A stretch of 33,549 nt of DNA, from assembly GCA_945898055.1 (NCBI GenBank), contig CAMDGV010000046.1, positions 1 through 33,549 on the forward strand, in the 5' to 3' direction. The position numbers and the translations under genes are program-made. Positions within the stretch are counted from its first letter, which is position 1; every line of letters starts with the position of its first letter. Source of the stretch: Akkermansia muciniphila (lineage in GTDB: Bacteria > Verrucomicrobiota > Verrucomicrobiia > Limisphaerales > UBA9464). A model generated the notes under the pieces. It made no database searches and was not told the DNA's origin. It saw only the letters and a list, made by a program, of their open reading frames with translations. Below are positions 16,944 through 26,803 of the stretch, piece by piece.

Positions 16944-17753
16944 ATGCCTGCAAACCCTGTCGCCTCATTTGGAAAGCCCCATCGGCAGGGAATTCGTACC
17001 GAGGCCTTCACCCTCATAGAATTACTGGTTGTCATCGCCATTATTGCTATTTTAGCCGGCATGCTTTTACCCGCACTCTCTGCCGCCAAAGAAAAAGGAC
17101 GCCGAGCTAATTGCATCAACAACCTCCACCAACTTGGCCTCGCCAGTCATGTGTACGCTCTCGATAATCGCGACAGTGTCTTCGATGGCATCCGCAACGG
17201 TGGCGACTCCTTTCTGATGAGTATCTCCTCGGTAATGTATCATTCGATCAGCAATACCTATGGCGACAAGGTTTTTGATTGTCCCAATGTCTACCCCATG
17301 TCCCTCCCTGGAATTACCGATAATCCCAACGGACGTTTCCAAACGGGGACAGGATACTATATTGGATACCATTATCACGGCGGTCGTACGATGCCTAAAG
17401 AGGCGGGATGGCAATCGGTAAGCAAACTCACCGATACCTCCACTTTGATTAATACCAATGCACTTGCCGATGGGCAGCAATTGGTTCTTTTCTCCGACCT
17501 AAATAGTTGGGCTGCCAACGGTATTGGGGGCTACAATTGGGTTATAGCTCCGCACGGCCGCGGCGGAGCCGTTCGTCGCAATGGTCGCGTTTATCAATTC
17601 CCTATTGTTCAACCCTCAACTGCCCGCCAAGCGGGATCGGTCGGAGGTAACGTCGGCTATATCGATGGCTCAGTGCTCTGGAAACCGATCGCTCGAATGT
17701 ATGAGAAGTATTGGACTTACACCGGTGATGCTGGCCATCGAGGGGCTTGGTAG
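16944..17753 (+). CDS. Pseudopilin-type exported protein (prepilin N-terminal methylation domain)
   Basis: A 269-residue protein with a short basic leader, then [20 protein letters not shown], the prepilin peptidase site and hydrophobic helix. The residue before the cleaved Phe is Ala here instead of the usual Gly. The C-terminal domain is the DUF1559/verrucomicrobial type, with [20 protein letters not shown] after the helix and [11 protein letters not shown] near the end, the weak equivalent of the DGH motif. Such proteins are processed by a prepilin peptidase and inserted in the inner membrane or a type II secretion pseudopilus; many copies per genome are normal in this phylum. It is convergent with feoB (42 bases apart) and separate from the two minus-strand paralogues at 23-25 kb. 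Confidence 0.88.
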
Positions 17754-17795: not shown

Positions 17796-20069
17796 TTAAA
17801 ATCCCAGAAAAGTTCCACCTTGGAAGGTGAGAAAGGCGGCCATCCAAGCCAAAGCCGTCATGTATAACGCCTGAAAAAGGGGCCAGCGCCACGATTGAGT
17901 TTCGCGTCGTACAATAGCAATCGTACTCACGCACTGCATCGCAAAGACATAGAAGACCATGATCGTTATTCCAGTGAGCCCTGTGTAGACCACAGTACCA
18001 TCCGATCGACGCTCCCGCTTCAAGGCCTCCGCTAAACTCGCCGTACCTTGGTCCGTCCCTTCGAACTCTCCGACATTATAGACGACCGACAAAGTGCTCA
18101 CAAAGACCTCACGCGCCGCAAATGAGGCCACCAGTCCAATGCCGATTTTCCAGTCAAATCCCAGCGGTCGGATCAACGGCTCAATCCAATGTCCTAATTG
18201 CCCCGCATACGACAGTCTTAGTTGTTCCCCTGCTCTTTCTCGTTCCAATCGGTGGATCTCCCCTTTGGCGAGCGCCCAAGCCAGATTGGTGCTTGGAGCA
18301 GAGCGCAACAGGGCCAGACCGACACCGGTCTCCAACTGTCCCGGGAGAGTTTTTAATACCACCTCAGCCAAGGATTTCCTTAAAGAACCCGCTTCTTGCT
18401 TAGGATAAGTGACCAAGAACCAGAGAAAAATATTAATTCCTAAGATGACCGTACCGGCGCGTCGTAGAAATAATTTAGACCGATCCCACATCTGCCTGAG
18501 AACCACGGTTGGCACCGGGCGTTTATACGGTGGCAATTCGAGAATCAGCAACGGCGGTTCGCCCTTCAACAGAGTTTTCTTGAAAAGCCAAGCCATCCCC
18601 AAGGCTCCCACAATGCCAAGGAGATACATGGCAAGGAGAGTTAATCCCGGGAGACCGTTTCGCTGCGGAATGCAGGCGGCAATCAAGACGGTGTAAACGG
18701 GCAATCGCGCCGAACAACTCATTAAGGGAGCCACCAAAATTGTCGCCAAACGATCCTTAGGTGTCTCAATTGTTCGTGTGGCCATAATCCCAGGAATGGC
18801 ACAAGCAAACGAGGAAAGCATCGGGATGAAACTCTTTCCGTGCAACCCCACCCGACTCATCAAACGATCCATCAGAAAGGCTGCTCGGGCCATATAGCCC
18901 GAATCTTCGAGCAAACTAATAAAGAGAAACAGCAAACAGATCTGGGGCAGAAACACCACCACCGATCCCACTCCAGAAATCACGGCGCGACTCAACAAAT
19001 CGCTTAGATCGCCGGGGGGCATGGCGCTTGATAACGCACTCGACAATCCCTCGACCAAACTTTCCAAGGCACCCATGGGATATTGAGCCAACCAGAAAAT
19101 GGACTGAAACATCAGCGCCATAATCGACACAAAGATCCCTAAACCAAAAAACCGATGGGTCAGCACTTTGTCCAGTCGATCGGACAAAGTCTCCCCAGTG
19201 AAGGAGACTTCCGAAGTGACATGTTGCTGGATAGCAAACACCCGCGCGTAACGTGACTCGATAGCGGCACTTCTCCAATCAACACCAACCATTTCCAAGC
19301 GCGTTCGAGCTTCGGCGACCTGCTTTTTTAATGCCGCCGGATACTGCTCCGGATGACCTGCAAAAACCGTGTCATCGGTCAACAGTTGCAGAGCTTCCGC
19401 CGTGGCCAAACGTTGTCGATGGGGAAACAAGGTTTCCAACTCCCGCTCGATTCCCTGGGCCTCGCGGCCAAATGCCTCGGGTAATTCATTAAACTCTCTT
19501 GGAATCACATGACGAGTGCCCGAGCGCCCCGCTCGATCCAGCAACGCCGTCCTCAGTGCATCCACTCCTTCGCCATCGCTCGCCACCATAGGAAACACCG
19601 GCACACCCAACGCTTTCGATAATCCATCGAAATCAATCTCTTGCCCATTCACTCGAGCCACATCGAGCATATTCAAAACCAAGGCCGTCGGGTGGCCTAA
19701 TTCAATTACCTGAGTGGCATAGTAAAGATTTCTCTGCAGATTAGAGGCATCTGCGACAATTAAAACGAGATCGGGTGAAGCCACCTCAGGCACCCGCTGA
19801 AAGAGGACATCGCGAGCAATCTGCTCATCCGGCGATTGCGGACTCAGAGAATAAGTACCGGGCAAATCCAAAACAGTGACCTGACTCCCCCTTCCCGCTC
19901 CAGAAAGAACGCCTTCCTTCCGTTCGACTGTCACCCCCGCATAATTACCGACCCGCGCCCGCAGACCGGTTAAGGCATTAAACAGTGTGGTTTTGCCGCA
20001 ATTCGGATTGCCGGTTAACACCACCAAGAACGGTAAATTCGAAGTCGTCTTTGGAGAAATACTAGACAT
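17796..20069 (-). CDS. feoB: Ferrous iron transport protein B
   Basis: A 757-residue GTP-dependent Fe(II) permease of the inner membrane. The N-terminal G domain is complete: G1 GNPNCGKTT at 20-28, switch I VGNYAGVTVERKEG, G3 DLPGTYSL at 68-75 and G4 NMLD at 133-136. A helical spacer domain follows. The membrane part carries the Feo core: SYMARAAFLMDRLMSRVGLH, then GKSFIPMLSSFACAIPGIMA and later VASFAAREVFVSTLSVVYN. Length is typical. It is the last gene of a minus-strand feo operon, 84 bases after feoA. All elements look intact. The end is convergent with a pseudopilin gene. Confidence 0.96.
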   Translation of the reverse strand: MSSISPKTTSNLPFLVVLTGNPNCGKTTLFNALTGLRARVGNYAGVTVERKEGVLSGAGRGSQVTVLDLPGTYSLSPQSPDEQIARDVLFQRVPEVASPDLVLIVADASNLQRNLYYATQVIELGHPTALVLNMLDVARVNGQEIDFDGLSKALGVPVFPMVASDGEGVDALRTALLDRAGRSGTRHVIPREFNELPEAFGREAQGIERELETLFPHRQRLATAEALQLLTDDTVFAGHPEQYPAALKKQVAEARTRLEMVGVDWRSAAIESRYARVFAIQQHVTSEVSFTGETLSDRLDKVLTHRFFGLGIFVSIMALMFQSIFWLAQYPMGALESLVEGLSSALSSAMPPGDLSDLLSRAVISGVGSVVVFLPQICLLFLFISLLEDSGYMARAAFLMDRLMSRVGLHGKSFIPMLSSFACAIPGIMATRTIETPKDRLATILVAPLMSCSARLPVYTVLIAACIPQRNGLPGLTLLAMYLLGIVGALGMAWLFKKTLLKGEPPLLILELPPYKRPVPTVVLRQMWDRSKLFLRRAGTVILGINIFLWFLVTYPKQEAGSLRKSLAEVVLKTLPGQLETGVGLALLRSAPSTNLAWALAKGEIHRLERERAGEQLRLSYAGQLGHWIEPLIRPLGFDWKIGIGLVASFAAREVFVSTLSVVYNVGEFEGTDQGTASLAEALKRERRSDGTVVYTGLTGITIMVFYVFAMQCVSTIAIVRRETQSWRWPLFQALYMTALAWMAAFLTFQGGTFLGF

Positions 20070-20153: not shown

Positions 20154-20378
20154 TCACGGCTGCACCCAAATTTGTTCTGCATCTCGTTTACGCAAGGAAA
20201 GATGATACCCACGTAAACGAATCTCTAAAGGATCGCCCAAGGGTGCAAACCTCACAACATCGACCACTGTCCCCGGAAGCATTCCCATTTCCATTAAACG
20301 CACCCGTTGAGCTACCGGAATATCAATGCGCAGGACAGTCGCTTGGGTACCTGGGGCGAGTGAGGAGAGCGGAACCAT
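20154..20378 (-). CDS. feoA: Ferrous iron transport protein A
   Basis: A 74-residue SH3-like cytoplasmic protein that supports FeoB. It reads MVPLSSLAPGTQATVLRIDI, then VRLMEMGMLPGTVVDVVRFA, then GDPLEIRLRGYHLSLRKRDA. The RLMEMGMLPGT turn and the LEIRLRGY strand are diagnostic. It lies between the Cys-rich FeoA paralogue (105 bases upstream) and feoB (84 bases downstream) on the same strand, so all three are likely one transcript. Confidence 0.92.
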   Translation of the reverse strand: MVPLSSLAPGTQATVLRIDIPVAQRVRLMEMGMLPGTVVDVVRFAPLGDPLEIRLRGYHLSLRKRDAEQIWVQP

Positions 20379-20483: not shown

Positions 20484-20789
20484 TTACCGCAGTTGGACGG
20501 GGTGCGGGATCGGGTTGAACGGTGCTACCAGAATGCTCTCGGCTAACTTCCAACTCAGTCCCAAGCGTGAATTACAGACCTGACAAAGGAGGTGGTTCTG
20601 CAAAGTAATCACTCGGATACGCTGTTCTTCGCCAAAACCCATTTCGCGCAAACGCTGATTAACCTCAGGTGAAGCGGTTAAGTGCTTCACGACCACAGTG
20701 GAACCTTCACGCACTTGATTCAACGGACAGACCGCTGGAACCAAGCAGCGGTCAGTTGTACAAGCAGGGATGGAACACGGTTCGATCAA
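20484..20789 (-). CDS. FeoA-domain protein with cysteine-rich N-terminus
   Basis: A 101-residue protein whose C-terminal two-thirds is a FeoA domain: VREGSTVVVKHLTASPEVNQ, RLREMGFGEEQRIRVIT, then VCNSRLGLSWKLAESILV. The N-terminus adds four cysteines, C5, C10, C15 and C21, and C69/C72 form a CxxC at the base of the FeoA turn. Six cysteines in 101 residues suggests a metal or Fe-S site and a sensing or FeoC-like role, which is inference. It is the first gene of the feo operon and the nearest gene to the tandem repeat at 20830-20871. It is not a fragment: it has its own start and a full FeoA domain. Confidence 0.85.
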   Translation of the reverse strand: MIEPCSIPACTTDRCLVPAVCPLNQVREGSTVVVKHLTASPEVNQRLREMGFGEEQRIRVITLQNHLLCQVCNSRLGLSWKLAESILVAPFNPIPHPVQLR

Positions 20790-20829
20790 TTGGTAGGTAA
20801 TTTAGTCAGCAAACCGCATCCGATCAAGA

Positions 20830-20871
20830 CTCTGTACTATCGGACAATTGCTCTGTCTTATCGGAGGATTG
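20830..20871. promoter_or_regulatory. Tandem 21 bp repeat upstream of the feo operon
   Basis: Two head-to-tail 21-base units, 20830-20850 and 20851-20871, share CTCTGT-NNN-ATCGGA-NN-ATTG, with 17 or so of 21 bases identical. They lie 41-82 bases before the feoA-paralogue start, where an operator or promoter would be. Two binding sites for one regulator on the same face of the helix (two turns apart) is a natural reading. The sequence does not match the Fur, DtxR or MntR consensus that I know. Which regulator would bind is unknown. Confidence 0.5.
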
Positions 20872-20924: not shown

Positions 20925-22001
20925 TTACGCGAGACCCAACCCCAATTCGTCGCGACAATAACGCAGACTCTTTTCTAGTTCACTCCGCTGACGGTCTTTA
21001 TTATTACCGTCGTAGGTATCCATCGCAGTTCCCCGTCGGACCACGGAAAGAAAGCGAGCAAACTCAGCGGCCGATTTCTTGGGGAATGCATCCCAAAATC
21101 CCTCTTCGTGATAAGGAAATTCCACGGCAAAGCCGCCGATTGTTTCAATGTTGACCGCCACACCCGGACACAATTGAGCGAACCGTGCAAAATACCGTTT
21201 CTGATCGACACACCCACCGTCACCCACTGCTGTCCATTGCACTTTACACCCTTTGTCCGTCGCCCAGATCCGAGAATCGCGTAAGCTGGTCGTCAAGGTG
21301 TACGGACCCAGCTTCTCCAAACTTTCAAGGGGATCTTCGAGTGTCCAAGCGGAGTTGCCTGAGTCCATATTGACACCGACATATTCGCGTCCTGCCGATT
21401 CAACCAACCAAACCAGTTCATCGGCGGTCATGTCGCCGGCATGATTTTCTACCGACACTTTGACCCCCAGATCCAGAGCCATATGGCGGCAGGCCTTCAG
21501 GACACGCACGGTATCCAAGATGCGTGCCTCAATGCCGCCGGGCGTTTTTCGATCGTCTCTCGAACCTAAAACTACTCTAAAAACTGGGGAACCTGCGGCT
21601 CGCGATAATTTTAATCCCAAAGCCAGATGCTCCTCAGCTGTGCCCCAGTCTTTCTTAAAGGATTTCGAGGTCGGACAAATACTCCAAGACCCCAAAAGAA
21701 GGGCGATGTTTTTGTCGTCAGCGTATTTCTTTAATTCAGAGGCCGCAGTAAGGGTCAAAGCCCCCATACCCGCCAAGTCAGTGATGAAAAGTGTATTGAG
21801 ACGCAGGCCCGCCGCATAGTCCACCAATTCGCGTCCCTTCCAACCCCAAGCACGGACCGCAAAGTTGTCCATACCCAAGGGAATACGTTTCCCTAGAGCA
21901 TCAAGAAGCGGTGCAGCATCGGCCGCTTGGGTTGGAGTGGCGGCCAAAGCCAAACCCGCCGAAGCCAAGGCGGTGGTGGAAAGAAAGTCTCGACGATTCA
22001 T
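20925..22001 (-). CDS. Tat-exported sugar phosphate isomerase/epimerase-like TIM barrel
   Basis: A 358-residue protein with a twin-arginine leader (MNRRDFLSTTALASAGLALA, ending at PTQA), so it is exported folded. The mature part is an AP-endonuclease-2/xylose-isomerase-like TIM barrel with KVSVENHAGDM (metal Glu), VGVNMDSGNSAW (metal Asp) and VNIETIGGF near the end. It runs co-directionally 77 bases after the aldo/keto reductase, and this pairing suggests a sugar-oxidation function. The expected fourth ligand is not certain. The product could be a periplasmic isomerase or a non-catalytic sugar binder; the fold is sure, the activity is not. It ends 135 bases before the feoA-paralogue start. 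Confidence 0.85.
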   Translation of the reverse strand: MNRRDFLSTTALASAGLALAATPTQAADAAPLLDALGKRIPLGMDNFAVRAWGWKGRELVDYAAGLRLNTLFITDLAGMGALTLTAASELKKYADDKNIALLLGSWSICPTSKSFKKDWGTAEEHLALGLKLSRAAGSPVFRVVLGSRDDRKTPGGIEARILDTVRVLKACRHMALDLGVKVSVENHAGDMTADELVWLVESAGREYVGVNMDSGNSAWTLEDPLESLEKLGPYTLTTSLRDSRIWATDKGCKVQWTAVGDGGCVDQKRYFARFAQLCPGVAVNIETIGGFAVEFPYHEEGFWDAFPKKSAAEFARFLSVVRRGTAMDTYDGNNKDRQRSELEKSLRYCRDELGLGLA

Positions 22002-23075: not shown

Positions 23076-23945
23076 TCACTGGAGTCGAACCGAAGAATGA
23101 TCGGACATATAGCGCATATCTCGATTACCACCCGAGGGCACCACTAGGGTCATGGACTTGAATAAAACAGGTTTAATGGTTCGCGGATCAATCCACTTAT
23201 GAAGTTCGGCGTGGCCGTCTGCGAAGCTCAACGCTCCAGAACTCCCATGGTTACTCGCTGGATAATCGATAATATAAACGGCGGAATCGGCAGCCCGATC
23301 GTTCATTGCCACAGCAAAATCTCCAAAGTTCACACTGTCTGGATGCTCATCGATAAAGACATAAGCTTCCGATGCTCCCATGCGGAGTAGATCACTTCCC
23401 TTACGGAAAACTACGTATTTAACTTGGGTGATAAAACTTAGCCAATCATCCCGCGAGTTCATCGCTTGGCTCATCGATAAACTACGGACCCGTGGTATCC
23501 GACGCCCGCCAATCGTCACCGTACTCCTATCTCCGGGGCAGCGATAAATCCCTGGAGCACCTGTGTACGGTGCAAGTTTAGCATATTTCGGATCACTCAA
23601 ATTGGCTAGATTTGTGTTATGCGGATTCGAAGGACTGTAGTCCAAAATTCCCCTGATCCATCCCGAACCATCGGCGGTCAAATCATTCCAGACCAAATTA
23701 TCGGCGTGATCATCGGCATACAGTTGCCAGCCTAAGGTCAACTGTTTCTGATTACTCAGACACAAAATTCCTTGAGCGCGTGTCTTAGACTTCGCCAACG
23801 CCGGCAAAAGCATTCCAGCCAAAATAGCAATGATGGCGATCACCACCAGTAACTCAATCAGTGTAAAACCAGCCCGACCCAGTCGGATTCTTCGAAGCCT
23901 GAAACTTGACTTCGTCAAAAACGGTAAACGAGGTGATGGGAACAT
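23076..23945 (-). CDS. Pseudopilin-type exported protein (prepilin N-terminal methylation domain)
   Basis: A 289-residue protein with a long basic leader (RLRRIRLGRAG) and the processing site [20 protein letters not shown]. After the helix comes CLSNQKQLTLGWQLYADDHA, then a domain with APGIYRCPGDRS, AYVFIDEHPDSVNFGDF and SFADGHAELHKWIDP, the DGH motif of DUF1559-like verrucomicrobial pseudopilins. The fold past the helix is shared with the genes at 16944 and 24281, but the body is divergent. Function is probably cell-envelope or secretion related. It is the upstream neighbour of the aldo/keto reductase on the same strand and may share its transcript. Confidence 0.88.
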   Translation of the reverse strand: MFPSPRLPFLTKSSFRLRRIRLGRAGFTLIELLVVIAIIAILAGMLLPALAKSKTRAQGILCLSNQKQLTLGWQLYADDHADNLVWNDLTADGSGWIRGILDYSPSNPHNTNLANLSDPKYAKLAPYTGAPGIYRCPGDRSTVTIGGRRIPRVRSLSMSQAMNSRDDWLSFITQVKYVVFRKGSDLLRMGASEAYVFIDEHPDSVNFGDFAVAMNDRAADSAVYIIDYPASNHGSSGALSFADGHAELHKWIDPRTIKPVLFKSMTLVVPSGGNRDMRYMSDHSSVRLQ

Positions 23946-24280: not shown

Positions 24281-25000
24281 TCACCACCACTTCCAATCTC
24301 GACTCGGCTTTGGATCGAAAATCCAAATCTCCATCTGCTTCGGATCCGGGAACTGATAGAACTCCACGTGACCGTCGCCGAAGAGCATGTTGAAGCGGCT
24401 CCTCCCCTTGTAGTTGTGCCAGGTGCTCTTGGCGTCCGTGTTGCCGCGATTCGCGTGCCACGCCCAGTCGCCCTGGAGGATCTTGTGCGACGCGCCCAGC
24501 GAGAGTTCCCCACTCTTGATCGGCAGATTTTCATAGCTGCCGCGCGCGGCCGCGATGTCGCCAACGACATGGCGGGTGCGGAAGGAATCGTGCTGAAACT
24601 GCGGCAGGTAGCTCGTGCCGTAGCTGAGGTAGCAGTTCTTAATGTTCGCGCCATTTAGCAAGTCCCCCTTGTCATTCGGACAGCGAAAAATTTCGTAAGA
24701 CTGCGTGTATTTGTTCAATGGTCGATTCGTGGCCGCAACGAATGCGCTGTAGGTGCCATTTGTACCGCCCGAACCGTTCCAGTCCGGTATTTGCGGAAAT
24801 GACCCGTTGCTGTCGTCGGCATACATCAGAAAAGCGAGGCCGATCTGTTTTTCATTGCTGGCGCATTTGATCTGGGTCGCCTTGTGTTTCGCCCGACCGA
24901 GCGCGGGCAACAGCATGCCAGCGAGAATGGCGATGATGGCGATCACGACGAGGAGTTCAATCAACGTGAAACCCTGCCTTTGAAATGTAATACGAGTTTT
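24281..25000 (-). CDS. Pseudopilin-type exported protein (prepilin N-terminal methylation domain)
   Basis: A 239-residue protein starting [10 protein letters not shown], then the processing site [20 protein letters not shown]. The frame opens 15 codons earlier at 25045, but the leader from 25000 is the more typical length. After the helix it has [30 protein letters not shown] and a C-terminal [16 protein letters not shown], the standard DGH motif. It ends in TGA, showing that TGA is a normal stop in this genome. Codon use is visibly GC-richer than in the two other pseudopilins of the window, suggesting a different history. Confidence 0.88.
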
Positions 25001-25308
25001 CATCGAATGAGAATGGAGTGTGGTTGCCTGCTTGAATGCCACCAAGGGTCTGCGCGGTCGAGTTGAATTGATAGGAATCCGCTTTCACCCTCCGCGACAT
25101 AGGAAAGTTGGTTTTACCGATGACGGTTTCGATGATTCCCGAAACGAAGCCAGATTCGATAGGTCAAGGATCTCAGGGCGCTGTGACCTGACCTCCTTGG
25201 CTGGACTGGCATCATGGAGGATCTCCAATCTGCAGTTTTAGTAATCTTTGGGATTTATCTTTTTTACCCGTTTAATTAGTTATATTTATCGATAAAGAAA
25301 CGCATTTT
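25001..25308. other. Gene-free stretch with a 12 bp palindrome
   Basis: No gene is supported. The right end becomes AT-rich and holds the perfect palindrome TTTATCGATAAA at 25285-25296, directly past the stop of the recombinase relic. It could be a protein-binding site, a weak hairpin or part of a former attachment site; nothing decides between these. Confidence 0.4.
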
Positions 25309-26011: not shown

Positions 26012-26803
26012 ATGATGATTTCCCGCCTGTTCATTTCCAGTCTGGCTTTGGCGGCCACCCTGCTTGGTTGCGGGACACTGCTGGCACAAGAGACGGCCTC
26101 ACCCAAGAACACGGACCTCACCACAGCGACGACAGCGTTGATTAAAAAAGCGATAGAGGGCGATGCCAGTGCCCAGTGGCGACTCGGGTTTATGTATGCA
26201 AATGAGATCGGGGTCGTGAAGGACGAGGTAGAGGCCGTGAAGTGGTATCGAAAGGGTGCAGATCAGGGCGATGCCATGGCGCAGCTCTTTCTCGGGCGTA
26301 TGTATGAAAATGGGAACGGGGTCGTGAAGGATGAAGTGGAGGCCGTGAAGTGGTATCGCAAGGCCGCAGATCAAGGCAATGCCCGTGCGCAGGTCAACCT
26401 CGGGCTTCGGTCTTCAAATGGGAACGGGGTCGTGAAGGATGAAGTGGAGGCCATGAAGTGGTATCGCAAGGCCGCGGATCAGGGCGATACCAGAGCACAG
26501 GGCTTCCTCGGGCTTAGGTATGAAAATGGGAATGGGGTCGTGAAGGATGAAGTGGAGGCCGTGAAGTGGTATCGCAAGGCTGCAGATCAGGGCGATGCCA
26601 GAGCACAGGTCTTCCTCGGGTATATGTATGAAAATGGGAAGGGAACCGTGAAGGATGAGGTGACGGCTTACAAATGGTATTTGCTCGCTGGGGCGCAGGG
26701 AGAGGAATTCGCCAAGGAGAAAATCCCTCTCATCGAACAAGGCCTCGCCGCAACTCAGCGCATCGATGGGCAGAAGTTGGCGCGCGAGTTCAAGAAAAAG
26801 TAA
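26012..26803 (+). CDS. Sel1-repeat lipoprotein
   Basis: A 263-residue protein with a lipoprotein signal (LAATLLGC, lipobox Cys20), followed by five tandem 36-residue Sel1-like repeats at 52-87, 88-123, 124-159, 160-195 and 196-231. A typical unit reads ARAQVFLGYMYENGKGTVKD. Sel1 repeats are TPR-like helical hairpins used for protein-protein contacts, and lipidated versions sit in the envelope. Units 2-4 are nearly identical to each other, also at DNA level. The start ATG at 26012 gives MMISRLFISS; the second ATG is an alternative. No enzymatic domain is seen. It follows an AT-rich stretch with a recombinase relic and is alone on its strand, so it may have been acquired or recently expanded. 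Confidence 0.9.
   Translation: MMISRLFISSLALAATLLGCGTLLAQETASPKNTDLTTATTALIKKAIEGDASAQWRLGFMYANEIGVVKDEVEAVKWYRKGADQGDAMAQLFLGRMYENGNGVVKDEVEAVKWYRKAADQGNARAQVNLGLRSSNGNGVVKDEVEAMKWYRKAADQGDTRAQGFLGLRYENGNGVVKDEVEAVKWYRKAADQGDARAQVFLGYMYENGKGTVKDEVTAYKWYLLAGAQGEEFAKEKIPLIEQGLAATQRIDGQKLAREFKKK
26165..26704 (+). repeat. Five tandem 108 bp units encoding Sel1 repeats
   Basis: Five in-frame units of 108 bases encode the Sel1 repeats. The stretch GTGAAGGATGAAGTGGAGGC recurs exactly at three places, and GTGGTATCGCAAGGCCGC at two. The first and last units are more divergent than the middle three, the usual pattern of recent internal duplication or ongoing copy-number slippage. Confidence 0.85.

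Follow-up and report, generated by a model that had tools for sequence, protein, structure and literature searches.

A conserved tandem repeat upstream of feo as the probable operator of an AraC-family activator in a family of Verrucomicrobiota

The tandem 21-bp repeat that precedes the feo genes in the stretch of DNA analysed here (the window, 33,549 nucleotides) is probably the operator of an AraC-family activator controlling feoA1-feoA2-feoB. Judged from comparison across the family to which the window genome belongs, the doubled 21-base sequence is a conserved control site and not a local duplication. An AraC-type protein has probably taken over the feo operon in this family, which lacks a detectable canonical Fur and a Fur-like box at feo.

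The tandem repeat and the feo promoter

The two direct copies abut, with CTCTGTACTATCGGACAATTG at 20830-20850 and CTCTGTCTTATCGGAGGATTG at 20851-20871 (plus strand); they form the tandem repeat before feo that the earlier note had described. Between the copies 17 of 21 bases match, the period is exactly 21 and the Tandem Repeats Finder score is 58. The feo genes downstream are on the minus strand, and the meaningful direction is the minus-strand reading towards them, CAATCCTCCGATAAGACAGAG-CAATTGTCCGATAGTACAGAG. Of 200 first-order Markov simulations of the window, one produced a 21-bp tandem with at least 17/21 matches, a frequency that applies to the single period scored (21), since a search over many periods would make such a tandem less rare. 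The elements are as follows.

20851..20871, minus strand: putative distal operator unit CAATCCTCCGATAAGACAGAG, with blocks RCAA and CGAYAR, in register with the family element
20830..20850, minus strand: putative proximal operator unit CAATTGTCCGATAGTACAGAG, 21 bp downstream of the distal unit and ending 2 bp before the -35
20822..20827, minus strand: -35-like hexamer TTGATC, its TTG aligned with the TTG of all 42 distinct profiled family promoters
20799..20804, minus strand: -10-like hexamer TAAATT, spacer 17, aligned with the family TAnnnT
20484..20789, minus strand: feoA1, FeoA domain (Pfam), Cys-rich N terminus, TTG start at 20789
20154..20378, minus strand: feoA2, FeoA domain (Pfam)
17796..20069, minus strand: feoB, with FeoB_N, Gate and FeoB_C (Pfam)

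Activators typically bind just upstream of the -35, and the repeat lies on that side of it. The window feo promoter is weak, with 8 of 12 consensus positions; a generic promoter scan that needs 9 of 12 found no promoter in front of feo in the window. Because the TTG start codon of feoA1 (20789) sits only 9 nt past the -10, the feoA1 mRNA may be leaderless; start codons are similarly near in relatives.

The pattern proposed in the earlier note, at up to 3 mismatches, had no match in the window beyond its two source copies (0.11 expected). With a degenerate tandem pattern applied to the whole genome, the feo site was the sole match with fewer than 2 mismatches, and 23 other matches had 2-3 mismatches, versus 15 for the reversed control.

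Elsewhere in the window, a 17-nt inverted repeat (20776-20792 and 21171-21187, 94% complementary, 378 nt apart) may be due to chance. A Sel1-repeat protein (26012-26803) contains a 108-bp tandem repeat of 4.7 copies, and three prepilin-like proteins are encoded at 16944-17753, 23076-23945 and 24281-25045, the N-terminal methylation motif being checked by Pfam for 23076-23945 alone.

Conservation and geometry of the element

The literal motif CTCTGT-N3-ATCGGA-N2-ATTG, suggested earlier as a search key, served poorly in that role: at up to 4 mismatches it matched 2 of 48 family feo upstream regions, those of the window genome and its closest relative (G020), and missed the diverged element. Alignment of 18 same-genus promoters gave CAA-N5-CGACAA-N7-CAA-N5-CGACAA-N9-TTG, which is the same architecture in another spelling. 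Across the family, the element reads RCAA-N5-CRACAA, then RCAA-N5-CGACAA 21 bp on (20 bp in four genomes), then the -35. It lies upstream of feoA1 in 50/50 family genomes, at exactly 21 bp in 46 (by pattern) and at 20 bp in G012, G046, G048 and G049; this position was checked by coordinates in 49 of the 50, and that of G006 comes from the genome-wide pattern search, its extracted stretch (L044) stopping short. The earlier note had expected the repeat to recur at feo in relatives if it mattered; the literal sequence is almost absent there, whereas the diverged element is present in all 50. Because it precedes feoA1 across all 50 genomes, in a near-fixed place relative to the promoter, sequence comparison supports the suggestion of an operator for an iron regulator not yet recognised.

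Searched genome-wide with 3 mismatches allowed, the family pattern matched 60 times, in 48 of the 50 family genomes, versus 2 matches for the reversed pattern. Fifty-eight of the 60 are at feo (46 genomes) and the other two lie upstream of an araC gene. A second copy of the element is found between feoA1 and feoA2 in 13 same-genus genomes and is absent from the window genome.

At up to 4 mismatches, 44 of 48 oriented family promoters fit the architecture; three of the others (G012, G046 and G048) are shifted by one base, and the G006 stretch does not reach the site. Two stretches (L018 and L019), left unoriented in this alignment, were scored separately. In the 42 distinct promoters, the CAA blocks and the TTG of the -35 do not vary, information in the CGACA blocks is 1.25-2 bits per base, and the bases between the blocks are mostly below 1 bit, A at position 17 being the exception; these promoters were picked at up to 4 mismatches (44/48, with L013, L028, L036 and L044 dropped), so that the invariance arises partly by selection. 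The window copy has 3 mismatches to the 22 fixed positions of the family element, and 0 of 300 shuffles were as good; its departure from the family consensus at three conserved positions is nevertheless a point against reading it as an AraC-type operator.

These data bear on whether the repeat is a chance feature or a recent local duplication without function. The restriction of the literal sequence to the window genome and G020 would fit such an origin, which we nevertheless find hardly credible, given that the same blocks, period (21 or 20 bp) and promoter distance recur across the family while most bases between the blocks vary.

The earlier note was right that the site is unlike the iron-regulator consensuses it considered, and its own candidates from the Fur, DtxR and Rrf2 families were not supported. 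Against the Fur operator consensus, the site had 10 of 19 mismatches (300/300 shuffles as good), and against the consensuses of DtxR/IdeR, FNR, IscR, NsrR and CooA operators 216 to 298 of 300 shuffles were as good; the box of sister families described below had 6 of 14 mismatches on the window site (296/300 shuffles as good). The Fur, DtxR/IdeR and Rrf2/FNR families control feo elsewhere, but an operator of one of these types is very improbable here: the repeats are direct, not inverted, the family yielded no canonical Fur, and what is likely the Fur box in sister families has a different sequence.

In the operators I1-I2 (AraC) and Pm (XylS), direct repeats stand in tandem beside the -35 with a spacing of about 21 bp, and each repeat has two blocks one turn apart. 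The feo element has the same repeat layout, although its sequence differs and its proximal unit stops short of the -35. With direct repeats spaced by about two helical turns and set upstream of the -35 or against it, the geometry in every one of the 50 family genomes appears to be that of an AraC/XylS-type operator. The blocks of each 21-bp unit, RCAA and CGACAA, are unequal and spaced by about one helical turn, as would suit a single AraC-type monomer with its two HTH motifs in successive major grooves. A pair of monomers in head-to-tail order would then occupy the DNA just upstream of the -35 and bring RNA polymerase to the weak promoter, most likely when iron is short. Activation is suggested because the site lies upstream of the -35 and the promoter is weak, and an iron signal because the target is feo and Fur is missing. 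Binding, activation over repression, and an iron or redox signal are all predictions from sequence.

The phasing would also suit an OmpR/PhoB-type response regulator, for which the element would hold four similar subsites (CAA at 0, 11, 21 and 32) occupied by two dimers upstream of the -35. The CAA at 10-11 bp phase in all four blocks counts for this, and so against the AraC assignment, and the position fits an activator. We regard it as improbable, however, as strong (CGACAA) and weak (RCAA) blocks alternate where equal subsites would be expected, and as several families show a link between the element and an araC gene.

The candidate regulator and the Fur-like box of sister families

The best candidate for the regulator is an AraC-family protein, whose orthologue is present in 47/50 family genomes. 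The orthologues are 59-69% identical to the G048 query, apart from that of G046 (95%), and G037 and G041 have a second, weaker match. The window genome has one copy.

G000:C5:39651-40577: araC orthologue of the window genome

This copy matches PF12833 (HTH_18, E=2.2e-22) and PF00165 (HTH_AraC, E=5e-17); Pfam gave no hit on its N domain, and all listed NCBIfam hits on the AraC-family protein were far below the cut-off. For a relative with 73% identity, the AlphaFold model (mean pLDDT 86.9, pTM 0.70) shows an N domain rich in beta structure and a C domain made of helices. Its best Foldseek hits in the PDB are full-length AraC-family proteins; isolated AraC N and C domains were also found, and AraC N-domain and other cupin structures are among the hits, with E about 1e-4. 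Superposition on the full-length proteins gives low TM-scores (0.28-0.34 by query) and an rmsd near 18, as may be expected when two domains orient differently. The candidate therefore has the C-terminal double HTH of AraC/XylS proteins by Pfam, PDB profile and fold hits, and its predicted structure has an N-terminal cupin-like effector/dimerisation domain. Eight residues (C55, C192, C229, C294, C295, H33, H48 and H98, A1 numbering) are invariant in 15 aligned AraC sequences, and equally so in a set of 24 taken from named records, which shares some genomes with the first; the invariant cysteines are candidate sensors.

The association of the element with this protein draws on genomic linkage and co-occurrence in the sequence data. 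The only two non-feo matches of the family pattern are directly upstream of the araC gene in the sister genomes G046 and G048, at the same distances to the promoter as at feo. Related elements with 19-20 bp spacing lie upstream of the orthologue in G006, G007, G008 and G009 (genus g3) and G012 (g4); they were found by eye among the upstream regions of 30 orthologues, and a matrix scan of the fetched orthologue upstream regions agreed, save for the 19-bp copy of G007, which was at background. A similar element thus stands before the araC gene itself in three genera. The matrix scan found no element upstream of araC in g1, g2, g5, g6, g7 and g8, the window genome included, and this presence of the orthologue without its own element in most genera weighs against the AraC assignment. 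So do three family genomes that keep the element without a detected orthologue, namely G020 (86% complete), G047 (93%) and G049 (70%). Among 49 element scores, theirs are the 6th, 2nd and 1st from the bottom. Decay or shared ancestry could account for this, since the window genome, which has the orthologue, is 4th from the bottom.

In genus g1 (e.g., L244:96-6924), two ABC-transporter genes are followed by a gene that looks Zur-like by eye, and araC comes about 4 kb downstream of it. Two metal regulators may therefore be neighbours in this genus.

Among bacterial iron regulators, Fur is the best known and occurs very widely. In the 50 family genomes, a canonical Fur query gave 27-36% identity in 46 and nothing in 4, in a search that had no positive control of its own. 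In a set of 16 family genomes, Fur-family hits were weaker (4e-21 to 1e-26), one genome having none. On a tree, three Fur-family proteins of the family fall with paralogues (100/100 support), apart from canonical Fur; the tree does not include the copy of the window genome, and the paralogue group appears Zur-like by eye. The window's family thus seems to lack canonical Fur.

The comparison set covers other families of the order: of 192 genomes with FeoB outside the family, 80 were picked by hand, and G265, too short at 103 bases, was dropped. Of the resulting 79 feo upstream regions, 39 come from genomes with the AraC orthologue (E<=1e-25; AraC+) and 40 from genomes without it (AraC-). An element score of at least 5 was obtained in 8/39 AraC+ versus 0/40 AraC- genomes, a cut-off set after the table was seen, with best reverse-strand scores of 4.6 and 4.3; the remaining 31/39 AraC+ genomes score below 5. 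The best AraC- score (4.1, G072) belongs to a borderline element resembling a variant seen in family f26. Both the low-scoring AraC+ genomes and this AraC- element count against the AraC assignment.

A Fur-like box, TTGCAACYNAGTCTCAA, was found at feo in sister families, with TTGCAA at -35 spacing before TAnnnT. At up to 3 mismatches it occurs in 18/39 AraC+ and 31/40 AraC- upstream regions (49/79; scrambled control 1 and 5) and in 1/48 upstream regions of the window's family (scrambled control 1). Its presence in 18 AraC+ genomes is a further point against the AraC assignment. The box is present in 35/36 genomes with a Fur-family hit at E<=1e-27 versus 14/43 without (Fisher 7e-10), although this cut-off was also set after the table was seen, and the p value is optimistic because the genomes are related. 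The 8 direct-repeat genomes among the 79 have neither the Fur-like box nor a high-scoring Fur. TTGCAACYNAGTCTCAA is apparently the Fur box of this order, and feo likely passed from Fur repression to AraC-type activation. As a separate observation, the box is conserved at the -35 upstream of feo in sister families (e.g., L193, L205, L212 and L231), overlapping the feo -35 in many of their genomes.

Tentatively, and with more doubt than conviction, a wider reading may be proposed, in which the whole family and parts of the sister families dispense with Fur, and a cysteine-bearing AraC-type protein (C55, C192, C294-C295) that senses ferrous iron or an Fe-S cluster took feo after the loss of Fur and became the master activator of ferrous-iron uptake.

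Known systems and sites outside feo

The Fur repressor and its box likewise place feo under iron control, but neither a canonical Fur nor the box was found in the window's family. In Pseudomonas, PchR controls siderophore genes, with a ferric siderophore as the signal. It is likewise an AraC-family iron-uptake regulator, and is named in a report on IutR from Synechocystis sp. PCC 6803, a PchR-like AraC-family activator of iron-uptake genes (PMC11221513). IutR is the nearest known case: iron uptake is under AraC-family control, and a triple mutant no longer induces feoB when iron is limiting (PMC11221513). It differs in that feoB is less affected than ferric uptake and TonB-dependent transporters are the main targets, whereas the conserved target here is feo (PMC11221513). 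Three HOMER motifs are given and the term "direct repeat" does not occur in the available text; IutR is proposed to work together with FurA, whereas no canonical Fur was found here (PMC11221513).

In the open PMC literature, we found no report linking an AraC regulator or a Fur box to feo in Verrucomicrobiota, and none on this regulator or its putative operator, on DUF6662 or on AraC/XylS direct repeats. A defined clade of Verrucomicrobiota appears to run feo through an AraC-type activator site instead of Fur, and with a Fur-like operator still visible in sister families, it offers a likely case of regulatory rewiring of a core metal-uptake operon. The named operator, the named candidate regulator and the predicted targets (feo and DUF6662 outer-membrane proteins) are directly testable.

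Outside the family, the pattern found the feo of G081. A site in G136 lies between the araC gene and a gene for a DUF6662 outer-membrane protein, and in the family genome G003 a DUF6662 gene follows a site. In 80 named araC loci (868 kb), which belong to Verrucomicrobia, several of them in subdivision 3, Pedosphaera or Limisphaerales, a matrix trained on family sites gave 28 hits at a score of at least 13 in 24 loci, and the reversed matrix gave 0; six of the 24 loci (L260, L262, L263, L266, L272 and L273) repeat sites of family genomes already counted, and others may repeat genomes of our set. A site is located within about 300 bp of araC in 17/80 loci: 6 upstream (family genomes already counted), 7 downstream, 3 divergent and 1 convergent at the 3' end. 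Nineteen of the 28 hits were examined (hits upstream of araC, overlapping second hits and L305 being left out), and 12 of them precede outer-membrane-like proteins, so called by Pfam for L289 and by eye for the remaining 11. For 9 of the 12, the start codon found lies 67-69 bases away from where the site begins.

Several targets other than feo have the -10 some 12 bp nearer to the site, which therefore overlaps the -35 region there, and the AraC-type protein may act in two ways. The same overlap would suit a protein that represses feo, or that switches between repression with iron and activation without it, and AraC itself is a dual regulator. At feo, however, the site is wholly upstream of the -35 in the scored family promoters and the weak window promoter (8 of 12) favours activation, so that we consider repression or switching unlikely and prefer an AraC-family activator.

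We set aside several further candidate sites as chance matches or as lacking support: one at aat-nuo, present in four close genomes (L059-L062), one that overlaps the gene of a sulfate-binding protein (L067), those in G093 and G268 (genomes without the AraC orthologue), those in G052 and G091, and L305, which is inside araC. DUF6662 proteins, outer-membrane-like by eye, follow an AraC-type site at L289:7016-7828, L147:1134-1988 and L066:514-1407, and may have a role in iron uptake. A second outer-membrane-like family (motif like GLDHRSSYGQ) follows a site at L303:7359-8228, and similarly in L304, L314 and L302; the L303 protein has no Pfam match. In one genome (G013, L065:1456-3001), the gene downstream of a site encodes a TonB-dependent receptor plug domain. 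Sites also lie upstream of prepilin-like genes at L145:1194 (G116), L148:322 (G265) and L299:3361, with a PepSY-TM gene next in L145.
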